DNA of 59,027 bases from contig NZ_VDFU01000026.1 in assembly GCF_006152115.1 (NCBI RefSeq), positions 1 to 59,027 on the forward strand. Reading direction: 5' to 3'. Position numbers and translations under genes: made by a program. Source of the stretch: Rubellimicrobium rubrum (GTDB lineage Bacteria; Pseudomonadota; Alphaproteobacteria; Rhodobacterales; Rhodobacteraceae). A model generated the notes under the pieces. The model did not search any database and had not been told where the DNA came from. It saw only the letters and a list, made by a program, of their open reading frames with translations. This document shows, in pieces, positions 17,161 through 38,052 of this stretch; the first letter of the stretch is position 1; the number at the start of each line of letters is the position of its first letter.

Positions 17161-20100
17161 ATGCCATTCCTCGACGTTCAGCTGACAAGCTGGTCTTTGG
17201 ACGTTGACAGTCCGGTCCTGAGGCGGCTACCGCGGCCTGCAGCCCTCCGCCACGCGGACTTCGAGGACAAGTTCGACCCTCTGACCGTCTTTTATGACTG
17301 CTTCTGGCTTGCGGACGGGCGTCGGATTGCCCTCCTCGGGCCTCCGCTGCTGAACTTGGATGCGGATCTGGACCTGAGAATCATATCCGTGCCGCACGAG
17401 ACGGTCTGCGAAGCCCGACGTATCCCAGGCTTCCATGTCGATACCATCTACGTGGACGTGCCCGACGGAACCACGGCGCTCCGGGTCTGCAGCCGGGTCG
17501 CGGAAGTGCATCTCGTCCCGCAGCCCAATCTTTGCCAATTGTTCCGTGACAGGCGGGTCATCACCACCCTGAGCAAGGACAACGAGCCCCTGTGGATCAG
17601 GGATTGGGCCACCTACCATCAGGAGGCGCACGGCTGCGACGGCGTTCTGATCTACGACAACGGTTCTACCGGATACTCGGTGCGGGAGATCCATGAGGCG
17701 CTTCGTTCCCTGAATGACGTCAAGGTCGTCGTGCTGGGATGGCCCTTCCGGTATGGGCTCTTCGATGGTCGGGTTCCGGTCAGTTATGACATCTGGGATT
17801 GGCATCCCTGCCAGAACGGCATGCTGGAGCATGCTCGACGCCGTTTCCTGGACACTGCCCGGAGCGTCCTCAACCTGGACGTGGACGAACTCGTCCTGAC
17901 CGAGAACGGTGACAGCGTCTTTTCGCTGGTGGAGGAGTCGGGCACCGGTCACATCCGTTTGGACGGCCTCTGGGTCGAGAACTTCCCGGTCCGTGAGCCG
18001 AGCGCCAGCGCGTCGCCACCGCGCCACAAGGATTTCTGCCATGTGAGGGCCGGCCGGAGGAACGGTTGCGAAGAGAAGTGGGCCGTCGTGCCCGGAAGAA
18101 CCCCCGAGGCTGCCCAGTGGGCCGTCCACGACATCCTGGGGATGTCGGCTTCGGAGCACCACCGCCGTGCCCAGCTCAGGCATTTCAAGGCCCTGAACAC
18201 GGACTGGGCAGCGGTGAGCCGTGCCGGCGATCGGACCAAGAGAACAGCCAGTTCACCGTCCGATCCGAACGCGTTCGAACTGGATGCCACCCTCCGAGAC
18301 CGGCTTGCCACAGTCTTCCCGGCGGACGCCGACCAAAGCGGGATCGCGCCCGATCCCCGGGCACACCGATCCGCCATAAGCTGGCGCCTGCGGGCTGGTA
18401 CGCTGTGGAGCTGCGGTCAGGTCGCCGAGGCGATCGAGGCGGTCCGGAAGGCCATCAGTCTTGATGAGGACGCTCCGGCGCTTCGCCTGTTCCTCGGCCA
18501 GATGCTCGAAGCGAGCGATCAGCCCGAGGAAGCCGAGCGTCAGAGAGCGATCGCTCGGAAATTGAGAGAGGCCGACGGCGCGTACCACTGTCAGATCGCC
18601 CGCCTGCATCTGGAGGAAAGGGACTTCGATCGTGCCGAGGCGGAGCTTCTTGCCTCACTGGCTCTCGAGCCGGATCTGCCGGCGGCTCATCTGCACTTGG
18701 CCCGGCTGCTGGACCGATCGGGACGGCGCGCCGAGGCGCTGATCGTCTTGGAGCGTTGCGTCGAGCGGGCTCCGGGGCACGCCTTGGGCCGGGCGGCTCT
18801 GGCGAGCCGGCTCATCGAGGACGGCCGATACCCGGATGCCCAGGGGCATGCTGCGCGTGCCGTCGAACTAAACCCAGCCAATCCGCACTACTACGCCGTT
18901 CATGGCGAGGCCCTGAGGCTCATGGGGCAGCTCGATGAGGCCGAGCGGGTCATCGAGACGGGTATCGCCCTGGATCGGTGGGCCGCACGGCGGCATGACT
19001 ATGGCCGGGAGGTCATCGACAGAGGGCCCGAGCCGATTGACCGCTGGGCCCAGGTATCTGTGCCCAACCTGCGGCACCAACTCGCCCACGTGTTCATTGA
19101 AAAGGGTCAGCTGGACCGGGCCGAGCGGGCGGCGCTGGATGCCACCGCATTGGGTCCGCCGTCGGTCAACGACCACATCTTGCTGGCGCGCATCCGCCTC
19201 CGCCAGGGGGCGAAAACGGCGGGCGACGACATGGAGGAGGCCCTCCGACTGGCGCGTCAGGAGTTCGACCGCCCATCGCACAACGAGAGCACTCGGCTGT
19301 TCATCCGGGAGCGGGAGGAGTACTCCGCTCTGGTCCTGTTGGATCTACTTCTCGAGAACCGGCTCCTCGCAGAGGCCGAGACGGTGCTGACGGAGGCGGA
19401 ACGGCGGCTTCGGGGATCTCCGGCTCTTGCGGAGCGGCGGGCGCTTCTTCTCGGGCAGTCGGGCGATGGGCCTGGGGCCACGGCCGTCCTCGAGGAGGCG
19501 ATCGGCACGCAGCCGGGCCATGCCGGTCTGCACGCCGCGTTGAGCAGGTCCTTGAAACGGACGGACATCGGGCGTGCCATCGAGGCCGCCAAGCGGGCGT
19601 GGGAGCTGGATCCGACGCGCGGCGAACACCCTATCGGGCTTGCTGAGCTGCTCGCCTTTGACGACCGGCTGGGCGAGGCCGAAGAGGTTCTCTCTCGGGC
19701 GAACGCCGTGATGCCGGACCATCCGGCCCTGAAGATGGCCTGGGCGCGAGTCCTGGAGAGAACGGGCGACAGGGCGGGAGCGATCTCCGCGGTCCGGGAA
19801 GCGATCGCGCTGGGTTCCCGTGACGCCTGGATCCTCAGTCACCTCGGTGGGCTGCTTGTCGACATCGGCGCCACCGATGAAGCGTTCGAAGCCCTGACCC
19901 ATGCAGACCGGACCGAGCCGGATAACGCGCTGACGTTGTATCGCCTGGGTCGGCTCCATGAGGTCCGGCGCGATCTTTCCGCAGCCGTCCAGTTCTACCG
20001 TCGCGCCGCCGCTCGGGCTGGTGATCAGGGCTGGATGTGGAGCCATCTAGGGGCGATCTTGCTGGAATTAGGCGAGATCGATGAAGGCACGGGCGCCTTG

Positions 20101-20382
20101 GAGCGGGCGCTGGAACTGGACCCCAACGACTGGCTTGGCCATTGCCGCTACGGGACGCTGATGCAGTCTCGGGGGGACATGGAAGCCTCGGTCCGGGCCA
20201 TCAGGACCGCCGTCAAGCTCAAGCCGGACCAGGCTTGGGTGTGGAGTCACCTGGGGCAGCTCCTGATGGAGCAGGGGCTCTGGCAGGAGGCGGAACGGGC
20301 GCTGGGGGAGGCGCTTTCGCTTGATCCTCAGGATCCGACCACGCAGGAACGCCTTGCGCGTCTCGGGGAGGTTCGAGGATGA
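17161..20382 (+). CDS. TPR-repeat glycosyltransferase (GT2/GT92-like N-terminal domain)
   Basis: A very large protein of 1073 residues. The first ~340 residues form a glycosyltransferase domain of the Glyco_tranf_2_4/GT92 type: KDNEPLWIRDWATYH, then GCDGVLIYDNGSTGYS, then the metal-binding DxD-like motif at D240-V-D242 in LNLDVDELVL, and RHKDFCHVRAGRR. From about residue 400 to the end lie roughly 18 tetratricopeptide-like units (repeated A/LG-x-LEL-xPDN-x-A patterns, e.g. LGAILLELGEIDEGTGALER and ALGEALSLDPQDP). There is no signal peptide or membrane helix, so it is probably cytoplasmic. It is reminiscent of TPR-containing OGT-like or processive modification enzymes, but the catalytic domain is not GT41. 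It opens a cluster with a TPR-sulfotransferase and two GT4 proteins, pointing to synthesis of a modified surface glycan. Confidence 0.8.
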   Translation: MPFLDVQLTSWSLDVDSPVLRRLPRPAALRHADFEDKFDPLTVFYDCFWLADGRRIALLGPPLLNLDADLDLRIISVPHETVCEARRIPGFHVDTIYVDVPDGTTALRVCSRVAEVHLVPQPNLCQLFRDRRVITTLSKDNEPLWIRDWATYHQEAHGCDGVLIYDNGSTGYSVREIHEALRSLNDVKVVVLGWPFRYGLFDGRVPVSYDIWDWHPCQNGMLEHARRRFLDTARSVLNLDVDELVLTENGDSVFSLVEESGTGHIRLDGLWVENFPVREPSASASPPRHKDFCHVRAGRRNGCEEKWAVVPGRTPEAAQWAVHDILGMSASEHHRRAQLRHFKALNTDWAAVSRAGDRTKRTASSPSDPNAFELDATLRDRLATVFPADADQSGIAPDPRAHRSAISWRLRAGTLWSCGQVAEAIEAVRKAISLDEDAPALRLFLGQMLEASDQPEEAERQRAIARKLREADGAYHCQIARLHLEERDFDRAEAELLASLALEPDLPAAHLHLARLLDRSGRRAEALIVLERCVERAPGHALGRAALASRLIEDGRYPDAQGHAARAVELNPANPHYYAVHGEALRLMGQLDEAERVIETGIALDRWAARRHDYGREVIDRGPEPIDRWAQVSVPNLRHQLAHVFIEKGQLDRAERAALDATALGPPSVNDHILLARIRLRQGAKTAGDDMEEALRLARQEFDRPSHNESTRLFIREREEYSALVLLDLLLENRLLAEAETVLTEAERRLRGSPALAERRALLLGQSGDGPGATAVLEEAIGTQPGHAGLHAALSRSLKRTDIGRAIEAAKRAWELDPTRGEHPIGLAELLAFDDRLGEAEEVLSRANAVMPDHPALKMAWARVLERTGDRAGAISAVREAIALGSRDAWILSHLGGLLVDIGATDEAFEALTHADRTEPDNALTLYRLGRLHEVRRDLSAAVQFYRRAAARAGDQGWMWSHLGAILLELGEIDEGTGALERALELDPNDWLGHCRYGTLMQSRGDMEASVRAIRTAVKLKPDQAWVWSHLGQLLMEQGLWQEAERALGEALSLDPQDPTTQERLARLGEVRG

Positions 20383-20670
20383 GAATAAAAGGTTCGTTGC
20401 GAGGCCGGCGGCATTGCGGACGGGCTATCCGCAGGCCGAAAGAAATGGCCGGAGCCTGGTCGGAGCCCGGACCCACTCCCCCGCGTGGGCAGGACCTTTG
20501 CGGAAGGTTTGAACCAGCCTCGGGAACATTCCTTGGGTGCTGAGGCTCCAGCTTCAATGCCATGGGTGGGTCTCGTGGACGGACGCCAGGTAGGAAGTTG
20601 GCCTGAGATGCAGGAATCCGCCACCCTGCGCTATGCCCGCTGGATAGAGAGGTCCGCAGGAACGCCCCGA

Positions 20671-21180
20671 TCAGCCTCCGTAAAGGCCGATACCGCGGGT
20701 GCCGCCTTCTTCGGAAGCACCAATCCTCCCTGGCGGGCCGGACGTGGCGAGGACCGCTCGCTCCGGTTCCGCGGCAAACGCTGCTGCAAGCGCCTCGATC
20801 TGCTCATCGCTCATGGGGAGCTCCGTCTCTGCAAGGAGCTCCACGACGGTTGTGAGGACATCCTCCTCCACGTCGCTGCCCAGTCCAAGGGTCCTGAGGC
20901 CCCGGATCAGGGCGGGCATCTGCGTCATCCGTTCCGGCGTGATGTAGGACAGCATCTGGCGCAAATGATGCTTGAGGGCGACCGCGGACTGGCTGCCCCG
21001 CGTGCGCAGCATCAGTTCGACCAAGGGATCGCTGGCCGGGCCCGACGCGTCGGGAGCGATGTTGCCGACGGGAGCCACGGTGCGACCCTGAGACGCGACA
21101 TATCCCGGCAGTGAGGCGAGCCCCAGCGACGCGACGGCGACCGTCGCGGTCCCGAGCAGCTTCTTCGACGTCTCGTCCAT
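20671..21180 (-). CDS. hypothetical exported or membrane-anchored protein
   Basis: A 169-residue product from the ATG at 21180, which has AGGAGGA upstream. An N-terminal hydrophobic segment (LLGTATVAVASLGLASLPGYVA) is a signal anchor or signal peptide. The middle is helical and acidic (EEDVLTTVVELLAETELPMSDEQIEALAAAFA). No family is recognised. It lies between the TPR-glycosyltransferase and TPR-sulfotransferase genes, on the strand of the latter. Confidence 0.65.
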   Translation of the reverse strand: MDETSKKLLGTATVAVASLGLASLPGYVASQGRTVAPVGNIAPDASGPASDPLVELMLRTRGSQSAVALKHHLRQMLSYITPERMTQMPALIRGLRTLGLGSDVEEDVLTTVVELLAETELPMSDEQIEALAAAFAAEPERAVLATSGPPGRIGASEEGGTRGIGLYGG

Positions 21181-21446
21181 TCCGGGTCCTCCTGAGGCGG
21201 AGATAGGACGACCGGAGACCGGCCCCAACCACCTCCTTCTACGGTCCAAGCCCTTGGTCCGTGGCGTCCTCGGTTCCTTCTTAGTTCCGCACCGATGCCG
21301 TGGCAACGTTTTCCGGGGCTTGGCCAGGGTCCGACCAGCCGTGCAGGGCATAGGCGCGATCCCGCCGACCTGGCGGGAAAACTTAGGGACAGGGCTCTAA
21401 CCGGCCGGGTCAGGACCGGCAGGACAGCCGGCCATGCTTGAGTGGT

Positions 21447-23042
21447 TTACGACAGGGCTTCCAGAACCATGGCGTCATATGCCGTGCCTTTGAATTCTCT
21501 AAGCACGTCCTCGATGTTCTCGATGACGCCATGGAGAGGAGGCGTGACCTTTCGCGTTGTAGGCAGGAGGGGTCTTGTCGGGGGTTCATCGAGGACCTTT
21601 GTGAAGGTCTCCTCGACCTCCGACGAAAACGCGCCGCCTGTGAACAGACGTTCATAGGTCAGGTGATGGTAGTTGTCGTAGCCGCTGAACCAGTCGTTGA
21701 AGATGGCCGTGGCGGATTGCAGGCGGTCCATCTCGAGCCGACAAGCGTCGATGTCGATGCGCAGCCTCTGCCGCCCTTCCTCCGAGGGAGATCCGCCCTC
21801 GCGATGCCAGACACCGCTTTTCTGGCTCAGCTTCAGCGAGCAGTAAAGCGCAAAGAGATTCTCGCGGACGAGGTGAACCACAGGCCATGACGCCTCTCGA
21901 ACGAAGTCGATAAGGGTGGGCGGCTCGTGTGGCAGGACGAAGCAGGTGTTCAGGTGGTGCCAGGAGTAATACTTCAGGTCCAGGATCGACGCCCCGGACG
22001 GGGAGACCGACTGGATGTGCTCGCAGTACCTCTGGAACAGCCTTCTCTGGTTATCGAGGGTCGGGACCGACAAGGACGGCTCGGCTGCGATCAGCGTGCG
22101 TCGGAAACCGAAGAAGTTGCCCCCGTAGGTGTCCTGCTCTGGTTCGTCATGGAACACCTCGCCGAAGAAATCCGTCTGCCACGCTGCGCTGACCGACTGG
22201 CCCAAGACCGTGCTGCCCGTGCGAGGGGCTGCCAGAACGATGCAGGCGGCCAGGGGTGCGGTCCGGCCTGACCGGGTGGCGGTCTCGAACCGCTTCGCCC
22301 GTCTGGTTGCAAGGCTCCGCCTTTCCGTCAGGGACGCCTTTCGCGAACGTGTGAGGCCGTCCCCGGGCGCCAAAGCCTCTGCCCGATCCAGCGCGACCTG
22401 AGCGCCGACGAGGTCGCCTGCTTCCGTGAGAACATGGCCGAGGTGGCTTTGAAGCCATGCGATCTCGGGGCCGAGTTCGGCGGCACGTCGGATATGCGCT
22501 AGGGCGCTCGCCTCATCTCCGATCCTCTGGAGCACTTCGCCGAGCCGGAACTGGTGCAGCGGCTCGACCGGTTCGAGCCGGATGGCCTTCACGAGGGCTG
22601 CCTTCGCTTCATCGAGGAGATTGCCGTCGGCCAAGCCCATGCCGATCTCGCTCCAAAGCCAGCCTTCGGGGGGAGCAAGCAGCGCGGCATGCCGAATCGA
22701 TCGGATGGCGTCGTGGGCGTGACCGCGGCGCAGGAGCAGTCTGCCCAGCCTAAGATGGATAATCGCACCGTCAGGCCAAAGCTCGATCGCATGCCGCAGG
22801 GCGTCTTCGGCTTCTCCAAGCGCGTTCGTCCCGTCCAGCAGGAGACTGCCGAGATGCAGCCAGCCCTCGACGAGGTCGGGCTGCAGCTCCACGGCACGCC
22901 GAGCGGACGCGACAGCCTTGGTCATGCGTCCTTGGCGATGATGGAGTTCGCTTAGCTGCTGATGGGCGGCGGCATTGCGCGGATTCGCCACAAGCTCCCG
23001 CTGCACGTCCATTTCTATCTGCATGTCATCGCTGCCGATCAT
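21447..23042 (-). CDS. TPR-repeat Stf0-type sulfotransferase
   Basis: A 531-residue fusion. Residues ~10-230 are six or so tetratricopeptide units (e.g. AVELQPDLVEGWLHLGSLLL, LHQFRLGEVLQRIGDEASAL). The C-terminal ~270 residues are a PAPS-dependent sulfotransferase: the 5'-phosphosulfate-binding loop PRTGSTVL lies near 273-280, followed by FFGEVFHDE, ILDLKYYSWHHLN, and VVHLVRENLFALYCSLKLSQKSG, which matches the 3'-phosphate-binding region of Stf0 enzymes. It likely transfers sulfate to a saccharide hydroxyl. The start at 23042 has GAGGGAG close by; an ATG at 23024 is an alternative. TPR-sulfotransferases in bacteria often neighbour glycosyltransferases, as here. Confidence 0.85.
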   Translation of the reverse strand: MIGSDDMQIEMDVQRELVANPRNAAAHQQLSELHHRQGRMTKAVASARRAVELQPDLVEGWLHLGSLLLDGTNALGEAEDALRHAIELWPDGAIIHLRLGRLLLRRGHAHDAIRSIRHAALLAPPEGWLWSEIGMGLADGNLLDEAKAALVKAIRLEPVEPLHQFRLGEVLQRIGDEASALAHIRRAAELGPEIAWLQSHLGHVLTEAGDLVGAQVALDRAEALAPGDGLTRSRKASLTERRSLATRRAKRFETATRSGRTAPLAACIVLAAPRTGSTVLGQSVSAAWQTDFFGEVFHDEPEQDTYGGNFFGFRRTLIAAEPSLSVPTLDNQRRLFQRYCEHIQSVSPSGASILDLKYYSWHHLNTCFVLPHEPPTLIDFVREASWPVVHLVRENLFALYCSLKLSQKSGVWHREGGSPSEEGRQRLRIDIDACRLEMDRLQSATAIFNDWFSGYDNYHHLTYERLFTGGAFSSEVEETFTKVLDEPPTRPLLPTTRKVTPPLHGVIENIEDVLREFKGTAYDAMVLEALS

Positions 23043-23602
23043 GTCTCCCTCTCGATGAGCCGGGTGTGCAGGGCGTGGACAGGACATCCATCAGCCGGCG
23101 AGAGCAGCGACCGGCCCCGGATGCTGCCGGCATGGAACGACCGTTCGCTGACAGTCGAAGGAGCGATGATCCAAGCCTGGCTCCAGTCCCGGTTCTTCAT
23201 GCTCGACCTTTCCGACGATAACTTGTGCGCAGATGGAGGCGGCACCAGACGGCCCGCGTCAACCGGCGCGAGATATGTCTCGGCGAACTCGGCGGACCAT
23301 AGCAGTCGACTGGCAAAGCGGGGACATACGTGACGCAGTAGCGAGCGCGATCTTGCCGGCTGCGACCAGTGCGAGCCGCCCCGACAGGAACGGGAACGCT
23401 CCGCACGTGCAATCTAAGGGCGACCAGTGTGCTGGGCCTGGCAACCATCCGGGGTCTTTGCTGGACCTCACCCCATGGTGAAGGCAAGCTGGCTCCGCGA
23501 TCGGAGCCTCCCGACTTGACGCGAGCCTAGCCCTCACCGTCAATGACGGGACCTCGCCAGGCCAAGGCCTCCGCCGAGCCGAACGCGTCCGAAGGAACAC
23601 GC
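23043..23602. other. divergent intergenic region between the sulfotransferase and first GT4 gene
   Basis: About 560 bases with no gene I can support. It probably holds divergent promoters for the TPR-sulfotransferase (minus) and the GT4 pair (plus). Confidence 0.4.
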
Positions 23603-26353
23603 ATGATCCAAGGTCAGAACGAAGCCTCGGCTTCGGTAAGCCCCTTTCGGCCCGCGTCGAACAGCATCTGCCTTGTCACCGGAGAACTCGCGGGCCCTGA
23701 CTACAATGGAGGGATCGGAACAGCGGTCCGTGGACTGGCCCTTGCCCTGGCTCGAGAAGGGTATCAGGTCGACATCCTTTATACCCGGGTCGAGCGGCGG
23801 ACCCCCTTCTGCTTTCGGGGAAGCTTCGAGGATCAGGTCGATCTGTTCCGCCAGAAGGGCATCCGCCTGATCTGCCTGTCCCATGATGGCGAATGGAACG
23901 ATTGGCTCGCCAAGTCCTATCAGGTCATGCTGCACCTTCAGGCGCGTCGATATGACTTGGTGTTCTTCAACGACATGCATGGGTCGGGATACTATTCCCA
24001 ACTCGCCCGCAAGACAGCCAGCCCCGACTTTGCAAGGACCCCCATGGTCGTCGTGGCCCACAGCGCCACGCAATGGGTCATGGAGATGAACCAGGACCCG
24101 ATCACCTCGGTCCAGGATGTCCGCCTTGTGGAAATCGAGCGGAGAAGCATCGAGCTGGCCGATGCGCTGATCTCTCCGAGTGCCTACATGCTGGACAGGT
24201 ACAAAGGATACGGCTGGACGTTGCCGGACAACACCGTCGTGCTCCCGAACCTGTTGCCAAAGGACAGTCGAAGTCGGCGGCCGGAGCTTCGGGCCTCTCC
24301 GGTGGATGAGATCGTGTTCTTTGGACGCCTGGAGCGCCGAAAGGGCCTGTGGCTGTTCTGCGAGGCGCTGAACCGCATCAAGCACGAGATGGGTGACCTG
24401 AAGGTCACCTTCTTGGGCAGGATGACGGAAGAGGAGGGGGAGTTGACCGGCTTTCCCGTGCTGAAACGTTCGGCAGGGTGGCCGTTCGAGGTGCAGATCC
24501 TCCACAACTTCGATCGGGAACAGGCCATCAACTACCTCAAGGCGGGTCGGAGGGTGGCCGTCATGCCGGCGGCGCAGGACAACAGCCCCTGCGCCATTCT
24601 TGAATGTCTGTACGAAGGGATCCCGTTCGTCGCATCGAGCGGCAGTGGCGGACAGGAGTTGATCGCCAAGGAGTGCTGGGCCAGCAACCTGTTCGAACCG
24701 ACCGTCGAGGGGCTGAGCCACACACTTCGGTCGATACGGCGTAACGGGGCCGCGACAGGGCTGCCCGCCACCGATCCGGATCAGAACGAGAGGATGATGA
24801 TGGACTGGCTGGAGCAGATCATCACGGCCAGCCGCCTCCCATCGCAGGATCGGGCGAGGCCGGGCGTTCGGGCCGACCGTCCTGAAGGTTCTGCCAGACG
24901 CCACCTCCTTCTCTTGGCGTCGGCGCGGGTTGACCCTGTCGAGACCGCGGCAAGCATTGAACGTGCACTGACCGGCACCTTGGGGGCCGTCGACGTCACC
25001 GTGTTGACCGATGATCCACCCGCCTTGATCGACCGTATCCCCGATCGGTTTTTAACCGGGGTGGTGACTGTCGCCGATGTGCGGATCTATCAGGAAGTGC
25101 TTCTCTCGTTCGCTTCGACATCCACGATCATTGGACTGAGCCATGCATCCCAGCCGATCACGCCGGACTGGCTGGAGAGAGCGGAACGCTGCTTTGGTGA
25201 CGTGCGCGACATCGTCGCGCTGACTGGACTGGCCGCGACAACTGCGGAAGCTCCGAGGGACCCTCGCCCGTACATCAGCGACGGTCCGGAAGGGCGGAAG
25301 GTCCGTGAGTTTCCTGTCGGTCACTCTCGCATCTTGTTTCCTTTGGCGTTGGACACGAACAGCGGCTTCATCGCAATTCGGCCCGAGGCCATTGCGATCG
25401 TCGGGGAGATAGGTCCTTTCGACGAGCGGTACGAACGGTTCAAGAGGATGCAGGATTGGGTGCACGAGATCGTCCTGCGGCTCGATGAGCAGGGCCATCG
25501 GTTCGAGATCCTTGCCGACTGTGCTCTCGACGGCGTTGCGGTCGACCAGCCGTCTCCGGTGTTCCGGCTTGGGCAGAGTGCGCGGTCGCTGATCGGATCG
25601 CGCCCGGGATACAGTCCGGGCAGCGAGCCTGCTCTCCTTGCGAGGCTCGCCGCAGAGACGATGGTCGCGTCCGAGAGGAGGCGATCGGCCGCAGACTGCC
25701 TGGGCTATCTGTCCGCGAAGCTGGCTCAACCGCTGGGAGATCCCACCCTCTACGCAACGGAGGAGGCAACGGCGCGGACCCTGATCGCCATGGCCCAGGC
25801 TTCGGGTCAGACCGAGCTTGCCCATGAACTCGCTGCCGAGCGCCTGATGCCCGAAGGAGAGGAGCCCCAGGTGCGGCGTCCGCTAGCGTCTTACCTGCGC
25901 CGAAGCACGAGAGAGATCCGGCTGTTCGACCTGGCCGCAGCCAATGCCTTCACGTCCATGAATCTGTCGCACGAGTGGTCGTTCAGGTTGTTCTCCGATA
26001 CCCGCGAGATCGAGGTTCACCCGAACACAAGCAGGGAAGGCCGGGCCGGAATGCTGTTCAGCGACGTCGACCTGACGGACATGGGCGCCCTGCTTGGCGG
26101 AGTGCGACTGGCGTCCCCGACATCGCGCCCGGTGCGCTTCCGGATCGACATGGTGGCTCTGGACGGGTCTTCTTACTTCGGCGTGGACCGTATCGCGCGA
26201 GCGAACGAGTCGCTCCGGATTGACGAAAGACTGCCACCGGACATCCTGACCCGCTGCACCATCAGCCTGTCCACGGAGATGGCTCATCCGGGCGATCAGG
26301 CCCAGGACGCCTGGGCACGCTGGACCGACCTCATGCTGACCGTGCAACGATGA
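23603..26353 (+). CDS. bimodular glycosyltransferase, GT4 family N-terminus with a second GT2-like module
   Basis: A 916-residue protein. The N-terminal half is a GT-B fold GT4 enzyme: ICLVTGELAGPDYNGGIGTAVRG is the glycine-rich acceptor-site start, EIVFFGRLERRKGLWLFCEA is the donor-domain opening, and SPCAILECLYEGIPFVASSG carries the family's EX7E-type region. Around residues 430-680 a second domain looks like a GT2 or nucleotide-sugar Rossmann fold without a clear DxD (RHLLLLASARVDPVETAASI, LSHASQPITPDWLERAE, DTNSGFIAIRPEAI). The last ~130 residues form a beta-rich region shared with the next gene. The ATG at 23603 has GAAGGA before it; an upstream ATG at 23543 is possible. It overlaps the next gene by four bases. 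Confidence 0.8.
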   Translation: MIQGQNEASASVSPFRPASNSICLVTGELAGPDYNGGIGTAVRGLALALAREGYQVDILYTRVERRTPFCFRGSFEDQVDLFRQKGIRLICLSHDGEWNDWLAKSYQVMLHLQARRYDLVFFNDMHGSGYYSQLARKTASPDFARTPMVVVAHSATQWVMEMNQDPITSVQDVRLVEIERRSIELADALISPSAYMLDRYKGYGWTLPDNTVVLPNLLPKDSRSRRPELRASPVDEIVFFGRLERRKGLWLFCEALNRIKHEMGDLKVTFLGRMTEEEGELTGFPVLKRSAGWPFEVQILHNFDREQAINYLKAGRRVAVMPAAQDNSPCAILECLYEGIPFVASSGSGGQELIAKECWASNLFEPTVEGLSHTLRSIRRNGAATGLPATDPDQNERMMMDWLEQIITASRLPSQDRARPGVRADRPEGSARRHLLLLASARVDPVETAASIERALTGTLGAVDVTVLTDDPPALIDRIPDRFLTGVVTVADVRIYQEVLLSFASTSTIIGLSHASQPITPDWLERAERCFGDVRDIVALTGLAATTAEAPRDPRPYISDGPEGRKVREFPVGHSRILFPLALDTNSGFIAIRPEAIAIVGEIGPFDERYERFKRMQDWVHEIVLRLDEQGHRFEILADCALDGVAVDQPSPVFRLGQSARSLIGSRPGYSPGSEPALLARLAAETMVASERRRSAADCLGYLSAKLAQPLGDPTLYATEEATARTLIAMAQASGQTELAHELAAERLMPEGEEPQVRRPLASYLRRSTREIRLFDLAAANAFTSMNLSHEWSFRLFSDTREIEVHPNTSREGRAGMLFSDVDLTDMGALLGGVRLASPTSRPVRFRIDMVALDGSSYFGVDRIARANESLRIDERLPPDILTRCTISLSTEMAHPGDQAQDAWARWTDLMLTVQR

Positions 26354-29274
26354 GCGGCATGGGCGACAGGCCCTTCGAGGGAGTCTCCATGAGGCCGTTC
26401 CGCAGGCTTTCGGACGAACTTCAAGGGCTCCAGGGTGGCGGACGCCCGCTCAGGATTTGTCTGGTGACGTCGGAGATTCTCGGGCCGGTAAGGAATGGCG
26501 GCATCGGGACTGCCACGAGCGGACTGGTGGATCATCTGTCGGGGGACGGACACCAGGTGACCGTGCTTTTCACCAGCGTCGAGCACGGCGTTCCGGCCTG
26601 TGACGAGAAGGACTGGCCGCATTGGGTGTCCGCCCTGGCGCGCAGGAACGTCGAACTTGCCCACATCCCACATGGGGGCGATTACCGGATGTGGCGGCGC
26701 AAATCGTGGCTGGTAAAGGAGTTCCTGGCCGAGCGGGAGTTCGACGTCGTCTATTTCAACGAACACCACGGCAGCGGTTACTACGCCCTAGCCGCCAAGC
26801 GGGCCGGGTTGACGCCGTTCGCCCGGCAGACCCATTGCGTGATCACGCACGGGTCCATCGAATGGGTAATCAACACCAACGATCAAGGCATCAACCGGCC
26901 CAGCGATCTTGAGATGATCGGCCTGGAGCGCCGGAGCGCGGAGTGGGCGGATGTCGTCCTGGGCCCCAGCGAGTACCTGCTGCGGGAGTACGAGTCCTAC
27001 GGCTGGCGTCTGCCAGAGCGGACCTATACCCAACCTTATCCGTTTCAGGATCTCGGGGTCGAACCGGACCCGTCATCGGCCAACATCGACGAACTGGTGT
27101 TCTTCGGACGCCTGGAGCCTCGCAAGGGATTGTGGCTGTTCTGCGAGGCGCTTGACCATCTGGGCGACAGGCTTCGGGGTCACCGTGTCACCTTCATGGG
27201 CAGAATGACGGAGATCGGCAGCATCCCCTCGGCCGCCTTCATTCTTGAGCGCTCGGCACGTTGGCCGTTCCAAGTCAGGCTCCTCACCCGCTTCGGTCAG
27301 GCCGAGGCGCTGGATTACCTTCGTCGGCCCGGGCGGCTCGCCGTGATGCCATCCCTCGCGGATAACAGCCCTTGCGTCGTCTACGAGTGCATGGGGAACC
27401 GGATCCCGTTTGTGACCACCTCTGGGAGCGGTGCCGAAGAACTGATCCACCCGGACTGCCGGGACAGGGTCATGGTCGAGCCGAACGTGCGGGCACTGTC
27501 GGATCGGCTGCGCGACATTCTGGATCATGGGGCCGGTTTTGCTTGGCCGCGCTTCGATGCCGCAGAGAACCTGCGCACATGGTCGACCTGGAGCGGCTGG
27601 CTTGGCTCGCGGATCGAGGAGCCGGATGGGTTTGCCCTGGACGAGGAGCCGCCGCTACCGCCGGATGAACAGCGGACGCTGCTGGTGACCATCGATGCAG
27701 GCCTCAGCACTCTGGGCGGCCTGTCGGAGCAGGTGGGGCTGCATCTCCAGCGCTTTGGACCTTCGGTACGGCATGTGGTCCTGACGTCCCGGCTGGGCCC
27801 GGCGCGGAAGCTGCTAGACGAGACGCTCAGCCCTGTCTTTTCCGCAGACGGCGTGGATGGGAGGACAATCGGCGCGGACTCGATCGGGTCGCTGCTGGAG
27901 GCGATCGGCTCTTGCGACGTCGTGTTCTTCACGGATGCCGAGCACGAAGTGCTCCCGACGTTCTTCGTCGCGGCAATGGTCGCCCTGGCTCGAACCGGCG
28001 CCGCCATCGTGTCCTGCGTGTCCGCGGAGCGGCGCGTGCCCGATGGCGCCCTGGAGATCGCCGAACTGCCCTGCGGGGATCTTCCAGCGGCCGGCGGCCT
28101 TGGCCTTCCGATCGGGTCGAGCGTCTGGGCCGCTCGCTCCGAGGAGATCCTGGGGGAACTGACACCCGAGATGTTCCACCGCTCCGAGACGGGCGAACTC
28201 ATCGACGCCGCCCCGCTGGGCCAAGCCCTGATGCACAGGATAATGACATCCGACAGGGACGTCCTCCTGATCCCGTCGGTTGGCGCAGTCCGAAGACGGG
28301 AGGTCGGCGCTTTTAGGCAGCGGCGCCATTGGTACCAAGGCGCGCAGGAGGCGGCAGAGGCCCTGCGCCTCTGTCCTATTGTTCATCCCGACGGACTGGC
28401 TTGGCTGGGGCTGAATGCGGCGCAGTCGACCAAGGCCGTCGAGGAGGAGACGCTGGCTGGATTCGCGCAGGACTCCGGTCATCCCATCAACCTCGTGAGG
28501 CAAACGGGTCGGAGCGTTGCTGATCTGGCCATGCTGTCCGCCGCTCTGTCGCGTCCCGATCAGGCCATTCGCCTGCAGGCCGGGTGGGACAGCGACCTGC
28601 ACGCGTCCGCTGTGCTCCTCGACGTGGCCCAGAGAACGGCAGAAGCGCGGAGGCCTGTGGACCTGCGGGCGGGGCTTCTGGCGTTGCGGTCGGGGTCCTC
28701 GACGCCAGCCTCCGCCATGGAGATGCCGCCCGAAACCGCGTCCCACGACTTCCGGGACCGGTTGATCGCGGCCATCGCCCGGCAAAGGAGCGCTGATCAG
28801 CGCGAAAGGTCTGATCCGCGCTTTCTGGCCGCTGAGGACGCGACGTGGCGAAACCTTTCTATGGAGAGCGTTGGAGGCTTCCTGACGGATGGATCGCAGG
28901 GCCCCTTTTCCGACATCTTCCAAATCGATCCTGCAGCCGATTATGGCGTGGTCAGCCTAGCAGCGGGCCGTCCGGCACGCTCCGGTCGCCTGACCTTCAT
29001 CGATGTTCTCCTTGCCGGGCACGAGCGCATCGTCGCGGACCTGTCCCTTGGAAGATCGCTGCCGGTCCAGACCTGTCTGAGCGTCATTGACCAAGCCACG
29101 GGCGGAACCATCGCCAAAGCCGAGGCCCAGGATCTCGGCCAAGGCGTCCTGCGGCTGGCTGCCGATCTGCATGGGGTCTTCGGTGTCGTGGCGGTTTCGC
29201 TTGTCTTCGAGGCCAGGAGCGACACGCTCCGCCTTCCCTTCGGCTTCAGGCTGAACAGATTCCTTATCGACTAG
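26350..29274 (+). CDS. bimodular glycosyltransferase, paralogue of the preceding gene
   Basis: A 974-residue protein colinear with the preceding product: GT4 start (ICLVTSEILGPVRNGGIGTA), ELVFFGRLEPRKGLWLFCEALD, SPCVVYECMGNRIPFVTTSGSG in the donor domain, a central second module (TLLVTIDAGLSTLGGLSEQV, DVVFFTDAEHEVLPTFFVAA), then a C-terminal beta-rich domain. The ATG at 26350 overlaps the previous TGA (ATGA), so the two are coupled and probably act together. They evidently arose by tandem duplication and have diverged strongly outside the GT4 signature blocks. There is no signal peptide. Acceptor and donor sugars are unknown. Confidence 0.8.
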   Translation: MSGMGDRPFEGVSMRPFRRLSDELQGLQGGGRPLRICLVTSEILGPVRNGGIGTATSGLVDHLSGDGHQVTVLFTSVEHGVPACDEKDWPHWVSALARRNVELAHIPHGGDYRMWRRKSWLVKEFLAEREFDVVYFNEHHGSGYYALAAKRAGLTPFARQTHCVITHGSIEWVINTNDQGINRPSDLEMIGLERRSAEWADVVLGPSEYLLREYESYGWRLPERTYTQPYPFQDLGVEPDPSSANIDELVFFGRLEPRKGLWLFCEALDHLGDRLRGHRVTFMGRMTEIGSIPSAAFILERSARWPFQVRLLTRFGQAEALDYLRRPGRLAVMPSLADNSPCVVYECMGNRIPFVTTSGSGAEELIHPDCRDRVMVEPNVRALSDRLRDILDHGAGFAWPRFDAAENLRTWSTWSGWLGSRIEEPDGFALDEEPPLPPDEQRTLLVTIDAGLSTLGGLSEQVGLHLQRFGPSVRHVVLTSRLGPARKLLDETLSPVFSADGVDGRTIGADSIGSLLEAIGSCDVVFFTDAEHEVLPTFFVAAMVALARTGAAIVSCVSAERRVPDGALEIAELPCGDLPAAGGLGLPIGSSVWAARSEEILGELTPEMFHRSETGELIDAAPLGQALMHRIMTSDRDVLLIPSVGAVRRREVGAFRQRRHWYQGAQEAAEALRLCPIVHPDGLAWLGLNAAQSTKAVEEETLAGFAQDSGHPINLVRQTGRSVADLAMLSAALSRPDQAIRLQAGWDSDLHASAVLLDVAQRTAEARRPVDLRAGLLALRSGSSTPASAMEMPPETASHDFRDRLIAAIARQRSADQRERSDPRFLAAEDATWRNLSMESVGGFLTDGSQGPFSDIFQIDPAADYGVVSLAAGRPARSGRLTFIDVLLAGHERIVADLSLGRSLPVQTCLSVIDQATGGTIAKAEAQDLGQGVLRLAADLHGVFGVVAVSLVFEARSDTLRLPFGFRLNRFLID

Positions 29275-29324: not shown

Positions 29325-29486
29325 GAGATGAAGGAGTGTTCGTATGAAAGGTCGAGGATCCGCACGAGGGACCTACAATAGAACCGTGACGTTCCTGAAC
29401 GAGCCCTGTCGTGCCGGGAACGGAGCGGCAGGACCGGCCGGACAGAGCAGTGAGGTCCGCCTGTCTGAATGGAATGGGGGAGCATG

Positions 29487-32400
29487 ATGTCACGTCGCAA
29501 CTACGCCCAAGAGGACGGCACGTCCCGGCGGCTGATCATGGTCTTGGCTGCGGTGGCGGTGGGCGTCCTCGTGGTGGCCTACCTCGTCTTTTCGATCAGG
29601 GTCGCCTCAAACGAGGCTAGGCAGGTGGCGCAGACCGGCGGCGCGACAGGGCGGATCGGAACTCAAGTCACTCAGGTCGAACCCGTGACAGGGGTCCGAG
29701 GACAAGTGCCGGAGTCAGCGGGGCAGCCACTGGCCGGGTCCTCCGATCCGGCCAGTGGCTTGACTTCCGCCGAGGACGCGCGGGCAGCAGCCGAAGCGGC
29801 TCTGGTTCAGGCCACCCAGGAGGCTCAGTCTGCACAAGCGGCCCGGGAGCGCGCTTTGGCGAACCTGGAGCGAGCGCGGGCAGCCGAGGAGCGGGCCCTC
29901 ACCGAGGCCAACCTTGCGCGGGCGGCGGAGGAGCAGGCGCTGACCGAGGCGAACAGCTCACGCCGGGCCGAGGAGCGGGCTAGGGCTGAGGCCGAGCAGG
30001 CCTGGGCCGCCGAGGAGCAGGCCAAGGCCGCGGCGGATCAGGCTCGCGCGGAAGAAGAGGAGGCAAGGGCCGCCGAGGAGCAGGCAAGGGCTGCGGCGGA
30101 TCAAGCGCGGGCAGGGGAGGAGCAGGCAAGAGCCGCCGCTGACCAGGCGCGGGTAAGCGAGCAGCAGGCCAAGGCCGAGGCGGATCGTGCGCAGGCGGCC
30201 GAGTCAGAGGCCCGGCAGCGTGCCGAGCGTGCAGCGGCCGCCTCGACCGAAGCGAAAGGCCTGCAGCTTGCGGCGCAGGCCGACAGCATCCTGTCCGCGA
30301 GCAACGAGCCTGACTCTGTCGAGCAGGCGGCAGCTCTTGCGGTCGAGGCTTGGCGGCGGCATCCCACGTCGGGGGCTTATCAGGCCGCTCTGACGTCGCT
30401 TCGCCAGCTTCCAGTGATGCGTGTGGAGGCGGGGTCCGTCCTTTCCACTGTGGCGTTCGGCCCTGACGGCAGCCGACTGGCAGCCGGTGGCGTAGACGGC
30501 GCTGTTCGCCTCCTCTCGGCCAGCGGCGAGACGATCGCCCGGATCGAACAAGACGGCGCGATCGGTGCCTTGGCCTTCAGCCGGGATGGCACGCGGTTGG
30601 CCACCGGCAGCGAGGACGGTACGCTCTTGGTGTCGGACAGCGCCACGGGCGAGGAGATCGCCCGAATCAAGCAAGAGGCCGGAGTTTCGGCCCTGGCCTT
30701 CAGCCCCGACGGCACCCGCTTAGCCAGCGGAAGCTGGGAGGGAGCCACCCGCCTGATCGACGGCACCACGGGCGAGGAGATCGCTCAGATCGAGCAGGCG
30801 GCCGGGGTGTCTGCCTTGGCCTTCAACCGCGACGGCACCCGTCTGGCCAGCGGCGGCGGGGATGGCACGGTGCGTCTCGTGGACGCCACGGGCCAGGAGG
30901 TTGCCCGCATCGATCTGGGGGCTGCCGTCCACAGTCTGGCCTTCAGCCCCGACGGCGCGCGTCTGGCCAGCGGCAGCGATGATGGCAGGCTTCTCCTGTC
31001 GGACAGCGCCACGGGCGATGAGATCGCCCGCATCGACGAGCAGGGCGCCGGAATTTCCGCTGTTGCCTTCAGCTCCGATGGCGGCCGCGTTGCCAGCGCC
31101 GCGGGAGACGGCACTGTCCGCCTTTTGGACGCCGTGGGCAAGGAGATCATCCGGATCGAGCAAGGGGCCGGGGTGTCCGCCCTGGCCTTCAGCCCGGATG
31201 GTACACGCTTGGCTACCAGCGGCGAGGACGGCACGCTCCTCCTGTCGGACAGTGCCACGGGCGATGAGATCGCCCGCATCGAGCACGGTGCGGCAGTCTG
31301 GGATCTGGCCTTCAGCCCCGACGGATCGCGTCTGGTCACGGGAAGCGAGGACGGCATCATCCGACTTTTCGACGCCACGGATGGAGGACTGGCGCGCATC
31401 GATCATGATGAGGCGGTCTGGGTCCTGGCCTTCAGCCCCGACGGCACGCATGTGGCCAGCGGAAGCGTCGATGGCGCGGTTCTCCTGTCCGACAGTGCTT
31501 CGGGCGATGAGATTGCCCGGATCGGCCATGAAGGGGCCGTCTCGGCCTTGGCGTTCAGCCCTGACGGGACACGTCTGGCCACCGGAAGCTGGGACGGCAC
31601 CGTTCGTCTATCCGACGGCACGACGGGCGACGAGATCGCCCGCATCGACCAAGGGGAGGCGGTCTGGGTCTTGGCCTTCAGCCCCGATGGCCAACGTGTC
31701 GCCAGCGGCAGCGTGGATGGCACGCTGCGCCTATCCGACAGCATCACGGGCAATGAGATCGCCCGGATCGAACAGGATGGCGCGATCAGCGCCTTGGCCT
31801 TCAGCCCCGACGGCACGGCCCTGGCCGCGGCCGGCGAGGACGGCACCGTGCGCCTGCTTTCCGTCGCGGGTACCCAGATCGCCCGCATCGTGCATGAGGC
31901 AGGAGTCTACACCTTGGCCTTCAGCCCCGACGGCACCCGTCTGGCCAGTGGAAGCTGGGACGGTACCGCACGCCTGTCCGACAGCACGACAGGGGAGGAG
32001 ATCGCCAGCATCGCGCATGGTGCGGAGGTCTACACCCTGGCCTTTAGCCCCGACGGCACCCGTCTGGCCACTGGCAGCGAGGACGGAACGGCCCGCCTGT
32101 CGGACAGCGCCACGGGCGATGAGATCGCCCGCATTGAGCAAGGGGCCGGCGTCTACAGCTTGGCTTTCAGTCCCGACGGCACGCGCCTGGCGACTGGCAG
32201 CGAAGACGGGACGGCCCTCGTTTCGGACAGCGCCACGGGCGATGAGATCGCCCGCTTCGAGCAGGACGGGGCGGTCTGGGGCTTGGCATTCAGCCCCGAC
32301 GGCGCTCGGCTGGCGAGCGGGAGCCAGGAGGGCATGGTCCGGATTGTCCCCGCCGTCCCGGAGAGGACCTTCGCCCAGCTCTGCACCGAGCGCGCCGGAC

Positions 32401-32549
32401 GCAACCTGACCCGCAACGAATGGCGGAGGTACATCGGCGAGGGGGAGGACTGGCAGCCCACCTGTCCGGAGTGGCGCATGAGCGAAGAGGCGGGGGCCAG
32501 GGCAGAGGCGCCTGAGTCGGGCGGGGACGCTGCTACCGTCATACGATGA
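29487..32549 (+). CDS. membrane-anchored coiled-coil WD40 repeat protein
   Basis: A 1020-residue protein with one N-terminal membrane helix (LIMVLAAVAVGVLVVAYLVF), a short linker, and an Ala/Glu/Arg heptad-like coiled coil of ~170 residues (ERALTEANLARAAEEQALTE; AADQARAGEEQARAAADQAR). A link helix is typical of STAND-WD40 proteins (AALAVEAWRRHPTSGAYQAA). Then come 16 WD40-type repeats of ~40 residues (LAFSPDGTRLASGS-DGT-R-SDSATGDEIARI). It ends in the RNLTRNEWRRYIGEG...PTCPEW motif that often closes such propellers. The expected NTPase is absent; the coiled coil takes its place. The ATG at 29487 follows GGGGGAG; an ATG at 29484 is adjacent. It is probably a periplasm-facing or cytoplasm-facing scaffold; orientation is not determined. 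Confidence 0.82.
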   Translation: MSRRNYAQEDGTSRRLIMVLAAVAVGVLVVAYLVFSIRVASNEARQVAQTGGATGRIGTQVTQVEPVTGVRGQVPESAGQPLAGSSDPASGLTSAEDARAAAEAALVQATQEAQSAQAARERALANLERARAAEERALTEANLARAAEEQALTEANSSRRAEERARAEAEQAWAAEEQAKAAADQARAEEEEARAAEEQARAAADQARAGEEQARAAADQARVSEQQAKAEADRAQAAESEARQRAERAAAASTEAKGLQLAAQADSILSASNEPDSVEQAAALAVEAWRRHPTSGAYQAALTSLRQLPVMRVEAGSVLSTVAFGPDGSRLAAGGVDGAVRLLSASGETIARIEQDGAIGALAFSRDGTRLATGSEDGTLLVSDSATGEEIARIKQEAGVSALAFSPDGTRLASGSWEGATRLIDGTTGEEIAQIEQAAGVSALAFNRDGTRLASGGGDGTVRLVDATGQEVARIDLGAAVHSLAFSPDGARLASGSDDGRLLLSDSATGDEIARIDEQGAGISAVAFSSDGGRVASAAGDGTVRLLDAVGKEIIRIEQGAGVSALAFSPDGTRLATSGEDGTLLLSDSATGDEIARIEHGAAVWDLAFSPDGSRLVTGSEDGIIRLFDATDGGLARIDHDEAVWVLAFSPDGTHVASGSVDGAVLLSDSASGDEIARIGHEGAVSALAFSPDGTRLATGSWDGTVRLSDGTTGDEIARIDQGEAVWVLAFSPDGQRVASGSVDGTLRLSDSITGNEIARIEQDGAISALAFSPDGTALAAAGEDGTVRLLSVAGTQIARIVHEAGVYTLAFSPDGTRLASGSWDGTARLSDSTTGEEIASIAHGAEVYTLAFSPDGTRLATGSEDGTARLSDSATGDEIARIEQGAGVYSLAFSPDGTRLATGSEDGTALVSDSATGDEIARFEQDGAVWGLAFSPDGARLASGSQEGMVRIVPAVPERTFAQLCTERAGRNLTRNEWRRYIGEGEDWQPTCPEWRMSEEAGARAEAPESGGDAATVIR
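30451..32350 (+). repeat. tandem ~120-base repeats encoding 16 WD40 units
   Basis: Repeats of about 120-123 bases, each containing a version of GCCTTCAGCCCCGACGGCAC and a version of GACAGCGCCACGGGCGATGA. Many adjacent copies are nearly identical in DNA, not only in protein, which indicates recent duplication or gene conversion. Copies 1, 4, 6, 8 and 12 lack the TTG/ATG 'SDSATG' two-residue insertion and are one to three residues shorter. Confidence 0.8.
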
Positions 32550-33406: not shown

Positions 33407-34813
33407 ATGACTCTCCTGGATCCAGATCGCCTGTTGCCGACCTCGGGACCCGAGAGGGCAATCGCGCGGGATCTGTATGCCTCGGTGGCCGGGCTGCCCA
33501 TCCTGTCTCCGCATGGCCATACCGACCCCCGTTGGTTCGCCGAGGATGCCCGCTTTCCCGACCCGGCCCAACTGTTCGTCGTGCCAGATCATTATGTCTT
33601 TCGGATGCTCTTCTCCCAGGGCGTAGCGTTGGAGGATCTAGGCGTCCCCCGTACCGACGGAGGCCCCGTCGAGACGGACGGACGGCTGATCTGGCGGCGC
33701 TTTGCTGAGAATGTGCATCTGCTCCGGGGAACGCCTTCGGCCATGTGGCTGGCCCATTCTTTCGAGACTGTCTTCGGGGTGGAGGAGCCGCTGGGAGCGG
33801 GCAACGCCGACGCCATCTACGACCACATCGACACCTGCTTGGCCCAACCCGAGTTCCGACCCCGCGCGTTGTTCGATCGGTTCGGGATCGAGGTGCTGGC
33901 CACCACCGAAAGTGCGCTCGACGACCTACGCTGGCACCGCATGATCCGGGACAGCGGCTGGGGCGGTCGTGTCATCACCGCATACCGGCCCGACGCCGTG
34001 GTCGATCCCGACTTCGCCGGCTTCGCCGAAAACCTCGAACGCCTGGGCGAGATCACGGGTTGCGACACTGCAACTTGGGAGGGTTATCTCGACGCGCATC
34101 GGGCGCGCCGGGCCACCTTCAAGGAATTCGGTGCCACGAGCACCGACCACGGCCACCCCACGGCACGCACGCTCGACCTGCCGCAGGAAGAAGCAGCAGC
34201 CCTCTTCGAGAGGGTGCTGCGGGGCGGGGCTTCGGCGACCGACGCCGAGGCGTTCCGCGCGCAGATGCTGACCGAAATGGCGCGGATGAGCCTTGAAGAC
34301 GGGCTCGTGCTCCAGATCCACCCGGGTTCCCTGCGCAATCATTCCAGCCGGATGCTCGGGCGGTTCGGGCGGGACAAGGGCTTCGACATCCCGACGCCCA
34401 CCGACTACGTGACCGCGCTTCGTCCGCTGCTGGAGGCCGTCGGGCTGGAGCCGGGGCTCACGGTCATCGTCTTCACCCTGGACGAGACCGCTTACAGCCG
34501 CGAACTCGCGCCGCTCGCGGGTGTGTATCCGGCGCTACGGCTCGGGCCCCCCTGGTGGTTCTTCGACAGCCCGGAAGGCATCCGCCGCTTTCGGGAAGCC
34601 ACGACCGAGACCTGCGGGTTCTACAACACCGTCGGCTTCAACGACGACACCCGCGCGTTCTGCTCGATCCCCGCCCGGCACGACGTCTCGCGCCGGTCGG
34701 ATTGCGCCTACCTCGCCACCCTGGTCGCCTCCGGGCGGCTCCGGGCGGATGAGGCCTTCGAGGTCGCCCACGACCTCGCCTACCGGCTGGCACGGGAGGC
34801 CTACCGGCTCTGA
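33407..34813 (+). CDS. uxaC: glucuronate isomerase (uronate isomerase)
   Basis: This enzyme converts D-glucuronate to D-fructuronate and D-galacturonate to D-tagaturonate, the entry step of hexuronate use. It has 468 residues, the standard length. The amidohydrolase-type metal motif [12 protein letters not shown] lies near residue 37, followed by [18 protein letters not shown], the [20 protein letters not shown] block and near the C-terminus [18 protein letters not shown] and GFNDDTRAF, all typical of UxaC. It is the first gene of the uronate operon; the TRAP binding protein follows after 25 bases. Confidence 0.95.
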
Positions 34814-34838
34814 TCTGCGTTCCTGGGAGGAGGAAACA

Positions 34839-35816
34839 ATGAAGTCGTTGAGAACCACTGTGGCCGCTCTGGCGGTCCTGGCCGCCAGCGCCAGCGCCGC
34901 ATTCGCGCAGGAGATCACGCTGCGCTCGTCGGATACCCATCCGGACGGTTATCCGACCGTCGAGGCCGTCAAGCACGTGGGCGAACTCGTCAAGGAGCGG
35001 ACCGACGGCCGCATCACCATCGAGGTTTTCCACTCGGCTCAGCTTGGTGAGGAAAAGGACACCATCGAGCAGACCCAGTTCGGCGTGATCGATATGAACC
35101 GGGTCAGCCTCGGGCCGTTCAACAACCTGATCCCCGAGACGGCTGTGGTGTCGCTGCCCTACATCTTCCGCGACGCCGAGCACATGCACCGGGTCATGGA
35201 CGGTCCAATCGGGGACGAGATCCTTGCCGCGTTCGAGCCGCACGGCCTGATCGGCTTGGCCTTCTATGACAGCGGCGCGCGGTCCTTCTACAACAGCGAA
35301 AAGCCGATCGAGTCGGTCGAGGACCTCGAAGGCATGAAGTTCCGCGTCATGCAGTCGGACGTGTTCGTGGACATGGTGGACGCGCTCGGCGGCGACGCGA
35401 CTCCGATGCCTTATGGCGAGGTTTATTCCGCAATCGAGACGGGCGTGATCGACGGCGCGGAGAACAATCCGCCGAGCTATCAAACCTCGGGTCATGCGGA
35501 AGTCGCGGGGTACTACTCCCTCGACGAGCACCTGATCGTGCCGGAAGTGCTCGTGATGTCGAAGACTCGCTGGGACCAGCTTTCGCCTGAAGACCAAGAG
35601 GTCATCCGCCAAGCCGCGCAAGACAGCGTGTCGGTGCAGCGCGAGCTTTGGGCCGAGGCGGAAAAGGCGGCGCTCGAGGAGGTGATCGCTAACGGCGCTC
35701 AGGTCAACGAGATCGACAAGCAGCCCTTCATCGACGCGATGGCGCCGGTCTACGAGAAGTACGCGAATACGCCGGAGCTCCAGGATCTCGTTGAGCGGAT
35801 CCAGGCGGTCGAATAA
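34839..35816 (+). CDS. TRAP transporter solute-binding protein (DctP family)
   Basis: A 325-residue periplasmic binding protein with a clear signal peptide ([20 protein letters not shown], cut near AFA-Q). The mature part begins [20 protein letters not shown] and includes [19 protein letters not shown], the DctP helix [20 protein letters not shown] with the ligand-carboxylate-binding arginine in FRVM, and [20 protein letters not shown] strong GGAGGAGG ribosome site precedes the ATG. The operon context makes a hexuronate, or an unsaturated uronate, the likely ligand. Confidence 0.93.
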
Positions 35817-35882
35817 CGCGCGCCCTGGAGGATCGCATGGGTGCGGTCCTCCATACCCCCTTCATTCCCCGGGAAGCTTGTC

Positions 35883-36434: not shown

Positions 36435-36438
36435 GCGC

Positions 36439-37719: not shown

Positions 37720-37727
37720 GGTCACCC

Positions 37728-38039: not shown

Positions 38040-38052
38040 ACAAGGACATCCC

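Follow-up and report, generated by a model that had tools for sequence, protein, structure and literature searches.

A rare, recurring pair of giant GT4 glycosyltransferases beside sulfotransferase genes in Rubellimicrobium rubrum: a candidate module for a sulfated surface glycan

To our knowledge, descriptions of bacterial sulfated surface sugar chains are few outside the cyanobacteria. A 2020 paper reported sulfated glycosaminoglycan-like exopolymers from Pontiella (PMC7356697, consulted in part), which weakens the novelty of a sulfated product as such. The nearest described case that we met is the xss cluster of Synechocystis, which, according to the part of the source consulted, makes the sulfated exopolysaccharide synechan and comprises Wzx, Wzy, a co-polymerase, and eight glycosyltransferases (PMC8205485). 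Compared by description, the xss cluster and the cluster analyzed here both place sulfotransferases among several glycosyltransferases and small proteins without an assigned function. However, the sulfated product has been shown for xss, and xss has local Wzx, Wzy, and PCP genes, whereas the present cluster matched no export or polymerase family and contains a pair of giant GT4 twins instead. A second point of comparison is LpsS of Sinorhizobium meliloti, a Stf0-family lipopolysaccharide sulfotransferase described as modifying a surface glycan (PMC12445080, consulted in part). By description it resembles the sulfotransferase studied here as an alphaproteobacterial enzyme that would act on a surface glycan. 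The latter, in contrast, is fused to tetratricopeptide repeats (TPRs) and scores under the Stf0 cut-off, and neither twin GT4 proteins nor a TPR-glycosyltransferase is mentioned together with LpsS in the consulted part of that source. Among solved structures, the 11th-ranked Foldseek match, a multidomain enzyme of capsule synthesis from Actinobacillus (8qoy), resembles one twin, GT4a, in its length of about 1,000 residues and its GT-B part; the alignment is only partial, with TM values of 0.28 of the query and 0.26 of the target. Among the open-licence papers listed in literature searches, no title concerned a twin-GT4 module or a bacterial system with this composition.

The window, that is, the whole stretch of 59,027 nucleotides that was analyzed (G000:C19:1-59027), lies within a 4.6 Mb genome. 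The original prediction had placed four large carbohydrate-active proteins together at positions 17161 to 29274, and all four frames were found there, with a third-position G+C content of 0.75 to 0.78 in each. They encode a TPR-glycosyltransferase, a TPR-sulfotransferase on the minus strand, and two GT4 proteins of 936 and 974 residues with overlapping genes. The original prediction had also read none of the four as a standard polymerase, flippase, or Wzx/Wzy gene. Of some 40 likely frames in the window, 28 proteins were scanned, and none matched a polymerase, flippase, co-polymerase, or polysaccharide ABC exporter family. A predicted secreted protein of 169 residues, encoded within the cluster, had been overlooked. 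The features are as follows.

9300 to 10760, minus strand: polyprenyl-phosphate sugar-phosphotransferase, EPS_sugtrans over cut-off; a possible starter enzyme whose membership in the system is uncertain
17161 to 20382, plus strand: TPR-glycosyltransferase; GT2_4-like domain at about residues 1 to 380 with the motif LDVDE, TPR array at about residues 410 to 1070
20674 to 21180, minus strand: small putative secreted protein of 169 residues, without a match in Pfam or NCBIfam; by eye, its start resembles a signal peptide
21447 to 23042, minus strand: TPR-sulfotransferase; TPR array, then a P-loop sulfotransferase domain with PRTGST and RENLFALYCS
23543 to 26353, plus strand: GT4a; GT4 (GT-B) domain at about residues 40 to 431, GT2-like middle module at about 450 to 656, helical part, C-terminal beta-sandwich at about 831 to 933
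26350 to 29274, plus strand: GT4b, paralogue of GT4a; GT4 domain, GT2-like middle module, and a C-terminal region of its own; 4-base overlap with GT4a
29469 to 32549, plus strand: WD40 protein; 15 WD40 stretches, a coiled TolA-like stretch, and a start that resembles a membrane anchor; an uncertain member of the system

The possible starter enzyme is encoded 6.4 kb ahead of the TPR-glycosyltransferase gene, and a homologue is present on the contig of locus L008 (the same contig as L016). The WD40 gene adjoins GT4b both in the window and in a genome of the same genus (G003, locus L009). The region from 33407 to 42218 (plus strand) appears to be an ordinary uronate use region, with UxaC, TRAP transporter parts, a KduI-like protein, an SDR, a mannitol dehydrogenase, and UxuA. 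The uronate isomerase had its best plasmid matches in Rhodobacter and Paracoccus, which points to Rhodobacterales as the probable order. Two further plus-strand genes encode RTX proteins. One, at 42752 to 44536, specifies 594 residues with RTX nonapeptide repeats and no further Pfam match; the other, at 53927 to 57124, carries Calx-beta and endonuclease/exonuclease/phosphatase domains and is perhaps a secreted nuclease or phosphatase.

We propose, with a probability of about 0.57, that the cluster represents a module, spread by lateral transfer, for the assembly of a sulfated surface glycan, which would be exported by machinery encoded elsewhere. A recurring module of this kind, mostly alphaproteobacterial and with a sulfotransferase, would make sulfated glycans genetically accessible in a much-studied class. 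The G+C content was 0.647 in 17161 to 29274 and 0.671 in the remaining window, and the third-position values of the cluster frames were lower than those of many neighbours (0.82 to 0.89), a weak hint of acquisition.

Both twins matched GT4 domain models well over the Pfam cut-off. They were 42% identical across residues 41 to 424 of GT4a and each carried a second module, in agreement with their initial description as bimodular paralogues. A D-X7-E motif in the form DNSPxxxxE was present in all 11 twin proteins, the D replacing the first E of the GT4 acid-X7-E motif; we take this variant to be active. The predicted model of GT4a was of moderate confidence (pLDDT 65.4) and was used for domain borders alone. 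It comprised a GT-B fold at residues 40 to 431, an alpha/beta module at about 452 to 656, helices, and, at the C terminus, a beta-sandwich whose block means were 73 to 90 between residues 831 and 930. GT-B enzymes topped the Foldseek list for this model, and a search of solved structures with the GT4a profile found nothing. The middle modules of the twins had no GT2 match in Pfam and, taken alone, did not match a GT2 profile (0.2 and 4%); no conserved acid motif was seen by eye in that of GT4a. Profile alignments of the twins with giant GT4 proteins of order relatives spanned this module (residues 32 to 654 for GT4a and 55 to 676 for GT4b), and the middle module of one such relative, L040, is a real GT2 match. 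Against two Acidobacteriaceae proteins, the GT4b alignment extended through residues 60 to 628, whereas that of GT4a ended with the GT4 domain (33 to 483). The two middle modules were related to each other (80%, E 1e-5), and profile comparison detected no relationship between the C-terminal parts. We infer from these alignments that the middle module is a decayed or divergent GT2 module.

The GT4 pair was found adjacent, in the order a-b and on one strand, in all six loci that carry it: the window, L008, L017, L018, L019, and L020. L008 and L016 are one contig and were counted once. Several of these loci are cut by contig ends, including L008, where GT4b breaks off after about 119 residues. 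Seven GT4a relatives came from a pattern-based scan across the collection of species genomes: L016 to L020 and two loci of Acidobacteriaceae that each encode one giant GT4. Four of L016 to L020 carry an alphaproteobacterial name, and L020 is named only as Pseudomonadota. In evenly drawn samples, two of the 385 genomes from the class, G000 and G043, had full-length GT4a, and four more had GT4-domain matches only; of the 390 genomes from the order, one, G000, had it in full length, and eight more had the domain only. One of seven same-genus genomes had a match, the above-mentioned G003, where GT4b stands at the contig start, followed by the WD40 gene, and the GT4a side is missing. Among plasmids, each of the 24 records returned by tblastn covered at most 41% of GT4a; these were single-domain GT4 relatives in mixed contexts, with no further pair among them. 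No relative of the GT4 pair was found on viral contigs.

A maximum-likelihood tree of 24 GT4 domains, from which the cut GT4b of L008 was left out, placed the six a copies in one clade (100/100), the five b copies in another (99/96), and the two clades together (99/98). The outgroup rows L045 and L030 formed long branches, and the order of the outgroup was not resolved. Separate a and b clades that join each other point to one old duplication followed by co-inheritance of the two copies, patchy across species. Homologues of the pair, as opposed to the single-domain relatives that do occur in mixed contexts, are thus not scattered over unrelated surroundings and recur as a unit. The unusual composition noted in the original prediction is likewise not an accident of one genome, since a sulfotransferase accompanies the pair in five of the six loci and a TPR-linked GT2-type enzyme in three. 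The pair module is real, recurring, and rare; its ingredients are ordinary, and their combination is unusual.

The longest frame of the TPR-sulfotransferase spans 21447 to 23087 (minus strand), and the better start is at 23042, directly behind GAGGGAG. The protein matched Stf0 (PF09037) with an E value of 0.0021 and 18.1 bits, below the cut-off of 22. A two-row profile built from the window domain and its closest homologue gave 96.4% (E 1e-9) with a Sulfotransfer_3-type set and 85.6% (E 5e-6) with the Stf0 set, compared with 0.1% for the controls, an unrelated dehydrogenase and a GT2 set. The phosphosulfate-binding loop PRTGST is present, and both this motif and RENLFALYCS presumably have roles in the domain. 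Solved structures yielded one chance-level match (E 0.78). By its profile matches and motifs, the enzyme is best described as a P-loop sulfotransferase, not a proven Stf0 protein.

Sulfotransferase genes were located 0.5 to 4.3 kb from the pair in five of the six loci. Their families differ: the window enzyme is TPR linked, L008 carries its closest homologue, L017 combines Sulfotransfer_1 with a sub-cut-off TPR match, L018 encodes a DUF6473-Sulfotransfer-TPR protein of 1,382 residues, and L020 has a Sulfotransfer_3 protein. The 17 kb of L019 held no sulfotransferase, a PF13469 search included. PF13469 matches numbered 7 to 18 per genome in the five other genomes and 2 in that of the window. 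Bauldia litoralis, a culturable host of both the pair and the small gene with no sulfotransferase close to the pair, has 14. To these counts we added one for the window enzyme and another for G798, where PF13469 has no match listed at the pair. From 0.013 to 0.081 sulfotransferases were expected per locus, and the crude probability of at least five of six was 1.8e-7, a value that assumes an even spread over the genome and overstates the linkage because sulfotransferases cluster with glycan genes. DUF6473, sulfotransferase, and TPR parts form one protein in L018 (18733 to 22881) and are split over two neighbouring genes in L017 (8582 to 11229), a hint that DUF6473 may work with sulfotransferases.

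The original prediction had proposed a dedicated machine that builds a sulfated glycan on a carrier. The recurrence of the pair with a sulfotransferase partly supports this view, in which the sulfated product and the carrier are inferred. Alternatively, the genes could be neighbours in glycan synthesis that share no pathway, the pair being a side module of capsule or exopolysaccharide synthesis and the sulfotransferase and TPR-glycosyltransferase independent cargo in an acquired region. We regard this as somewhat unlikely. It would account for the mixed sulfotransferase families, the slightly different composition of the stretch, the frames in L017 and L019 that look transposase-like by eye, and the strand changes inside the block, where the sulfotransferase and small genes lie on the minus strand and those of the TPR-glycosyltransferase, GT4a, and GT4b on the plus strand. 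It would also fit the TPR-glycosyltransferase, a homologue of which was found in just one of the five other loci (L018, 15667 to 18660, directly after the pair; 48% identity in the head and 36% over 996 residues). Of these points, the mixed families, the opposite strand of the window sulfotransferase, and the single TPR-glycosyltransferase homologue (among loci several of which are truncated at contig ends) also count directly against a sulfated-glycan module. So do the sub-cut-off Pfam score of the window sulfotransferase, the lack of a sulfotransferase in L019, the lack of an exporter or polymerase match in the 28 scanned window proteins, and the failure of the middle modules alone to match GT2. 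Independent cargo, however, sits poorly with the short distance between sulfotransferase and pair in five loci and with L008, a genome of another family in which a homologue of the window sulfotransferase domain lies alongside the same small protein and the pair. It also does not explain the double-TPR repeat common to both window enzymes.

That two of the proteins consist of TPR arrays fused to catalytic domains was borne out by long TPR matches, with both catalytic domains below the Pfam cut-offs. The TPR-glycosyltransferase matched TPR models down to an E value of 3e-42, and its head matched Glyco_tranf_2_4 at 0.00089. TPRs resemble one another by nature. Still, the arrays of the two window enzymes were 35% identical over 247 residues, and the strongest self-match period was 68 residues, that is, two TPRs, in both. 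When up to 19 candidates in each of 41 genomes were scored against the TPR-glycosyltransferase, the only other TPR array at an E value of 1e-20 or less was that of the window sulfotransferase (1e-26). The array of the L018 TPR-glycosyltransferase was 42% identical to that of the window sulfotransferase over 131 residues, and neither the L017 nor the L018 sulfotransferase shares the 68-residue repeat in its TPRs. A common origin of the two window arrays is likely on these similarities, and the common double repeat suggests that both enzymes may share a docking partner. TPR linkage was present in three of the five sulfotransferases at the pair, counting the sub-cut-off match in L017, and the closest homologue, in L008, has no TPRs. 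The fusion is not conserved, and the proposal that TPRs select the acceptor is unsupported. The TPR-linked GT2-type enzymes mentioned above are those of the window, L018, and L019, the last being a different TPR-GT2_4 protein.

TPR fusions would also suit protein glycosylation, in which an RTX, small, or other secreted protein is modified in the cytoplasm before secretion and the TPRs read the polypeptide as in OGT-type enzymes. The two RTX proteins of the window fit this idea, and so does L021, where a HlyD-type secretion gene and a related giant GT4 lie 6.5 kb apart. We nevertheless consider it improbable. No GT41 model was among the best 25 of 26 Pfam families for the TPR-glycosyltransferase, the RTX genes are 13 to 25 kb away from the pair, and none of the six other loci checked showed an RTX-rich frame. 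In addition, the loci of related giants carry SQD1-like genes and, in L044, an ABC-2 exporter.

The small gene at 20674 to 21180 is preceded by AGGAGG. A homologue lies within 2.4 kb of the pair in four of the six loci; in L008, L019, and L020 it adjoins the pair, and the window copy stands beyond the sulfotransferase gene, 2.4 kb from GT4a. No homologue was found in G800, and G799 had only a weak match with a stop codon, located elsewhere (E 0.0039). Among 385 class genomes, the protein was found in two, the same two as the pair, both of which had supplied query rows; the other 383 had none at an E value of 0.001 with up to eight candidates scored per genome. It was not found in L040 to L047, L021, or L022. 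The predicted model was helical, with a pLDDT of 51, and was left out of the interpretation. The homologues from the window, L008, L019, and L020 share an E, a T, a G, and a late Tyr in their C-terminal tails. This protein might be a dedicated carrier to which a sulfated chain, built by the twins and decorated by the sulfotransferase and TPR-glycosyltransferase on a shared TPR dock, is joined. It would then be a bacterial counterpart of a proteoglycan core that has its own synthesis module, an idea that we hold to be a long shot. The ever-adjacent twins and a small secreted protein found only with them offer cheap test cases for work-sharing between giant glycosyltransferases.

In the sulfated-glycan module that we favour, GT4a and GT4b would be a coupled cytoplasmic pair that adds sugars to a chain growing on a lipid or other carrier. 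The sulfotransferase would add sulfate from PAPS, and the TPR-glycosyltransferase a further sugar, possibly with both docked on the same partner. The product would then leave through machinery encoded elsewhere in the genome. APS kinase was present in all nine genomes and also in 11 of 14 controls, so that it is merely permissive evidence. Poly_export was matched in six of six genomes, compared with 4 of 14 controls. The genome of the window has three Poly_export genes, all on other contigs and none tied to the cluster. By eye, on their frames, the surroundings of these three genes are those of ordinary exopolysaccharide or capsule synthesis.

It should be noted that both twins matched PF20706, GT4-conflict, over its cut-off, a point in favour of an anti-phage system. 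Such a role is very improbable, because generic GT4 models outscored PF20706 and PADLOC, run on six proteins, matched neither the twins nor the sulfotransferase nor the small protein. PADLOC did return repeat-type matches for the TPR-glycosyltransferase and the WD40 protein (the latter to HEAT-ARM_XIII, 6e-34).

Further relatives encode a single giant GT4. In 8 of the 390 order genomes, a frame of 825 to 1,224 residues carried a related GT4 domain. Six of these and two of the four genomes from the class search make up the eight single-GT4 loci, L040 to L047. In L040 to L044, the giants resemble the twins in this domain and in a profile alignment that continues through the GT2 module. They differ in that there is one such giant per locus, outside the twin clade, and the small protein was not found there. 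In L044, a further GT4/GT2 protein, 22% identical to GT4b, adjoins the giant. Sulfotransferases were present in four of the eight loci (L040, L041, L044, and L046); a local profile scan, with part of the proteins put to Pfam, found none in L042, L043, L045, and L047. Because L044 also carries genes for an ABC-2 exporter and for polysaccharide synthesis, the product is most naturally taken to be a surface polysaccharide.

SQD1-like genes occur in five of these loci (L040 to L044), with products 55 to 83% identical to that of L041. The L041 protein, the one of the five tested, matched SQD1 structures with an E value of 1e-95 and scored 332.7 against the NCBIfam UDP-sulfoquinovose synthase cut-off of 575, that is, below it. 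The genes possibly supply another nucleotide sugar for surface glycans. An SQD1-like gene was considered for the window pathway and rejected. The copy of that genome is on another contig (C26), and none of the five other twin genomes had one at an E value of 1e-60; for these reasons, sulfoquinovose is not claimed. On C26, the genes next to the SQD1-like gene look, by eye, like a sulfolipid operon.
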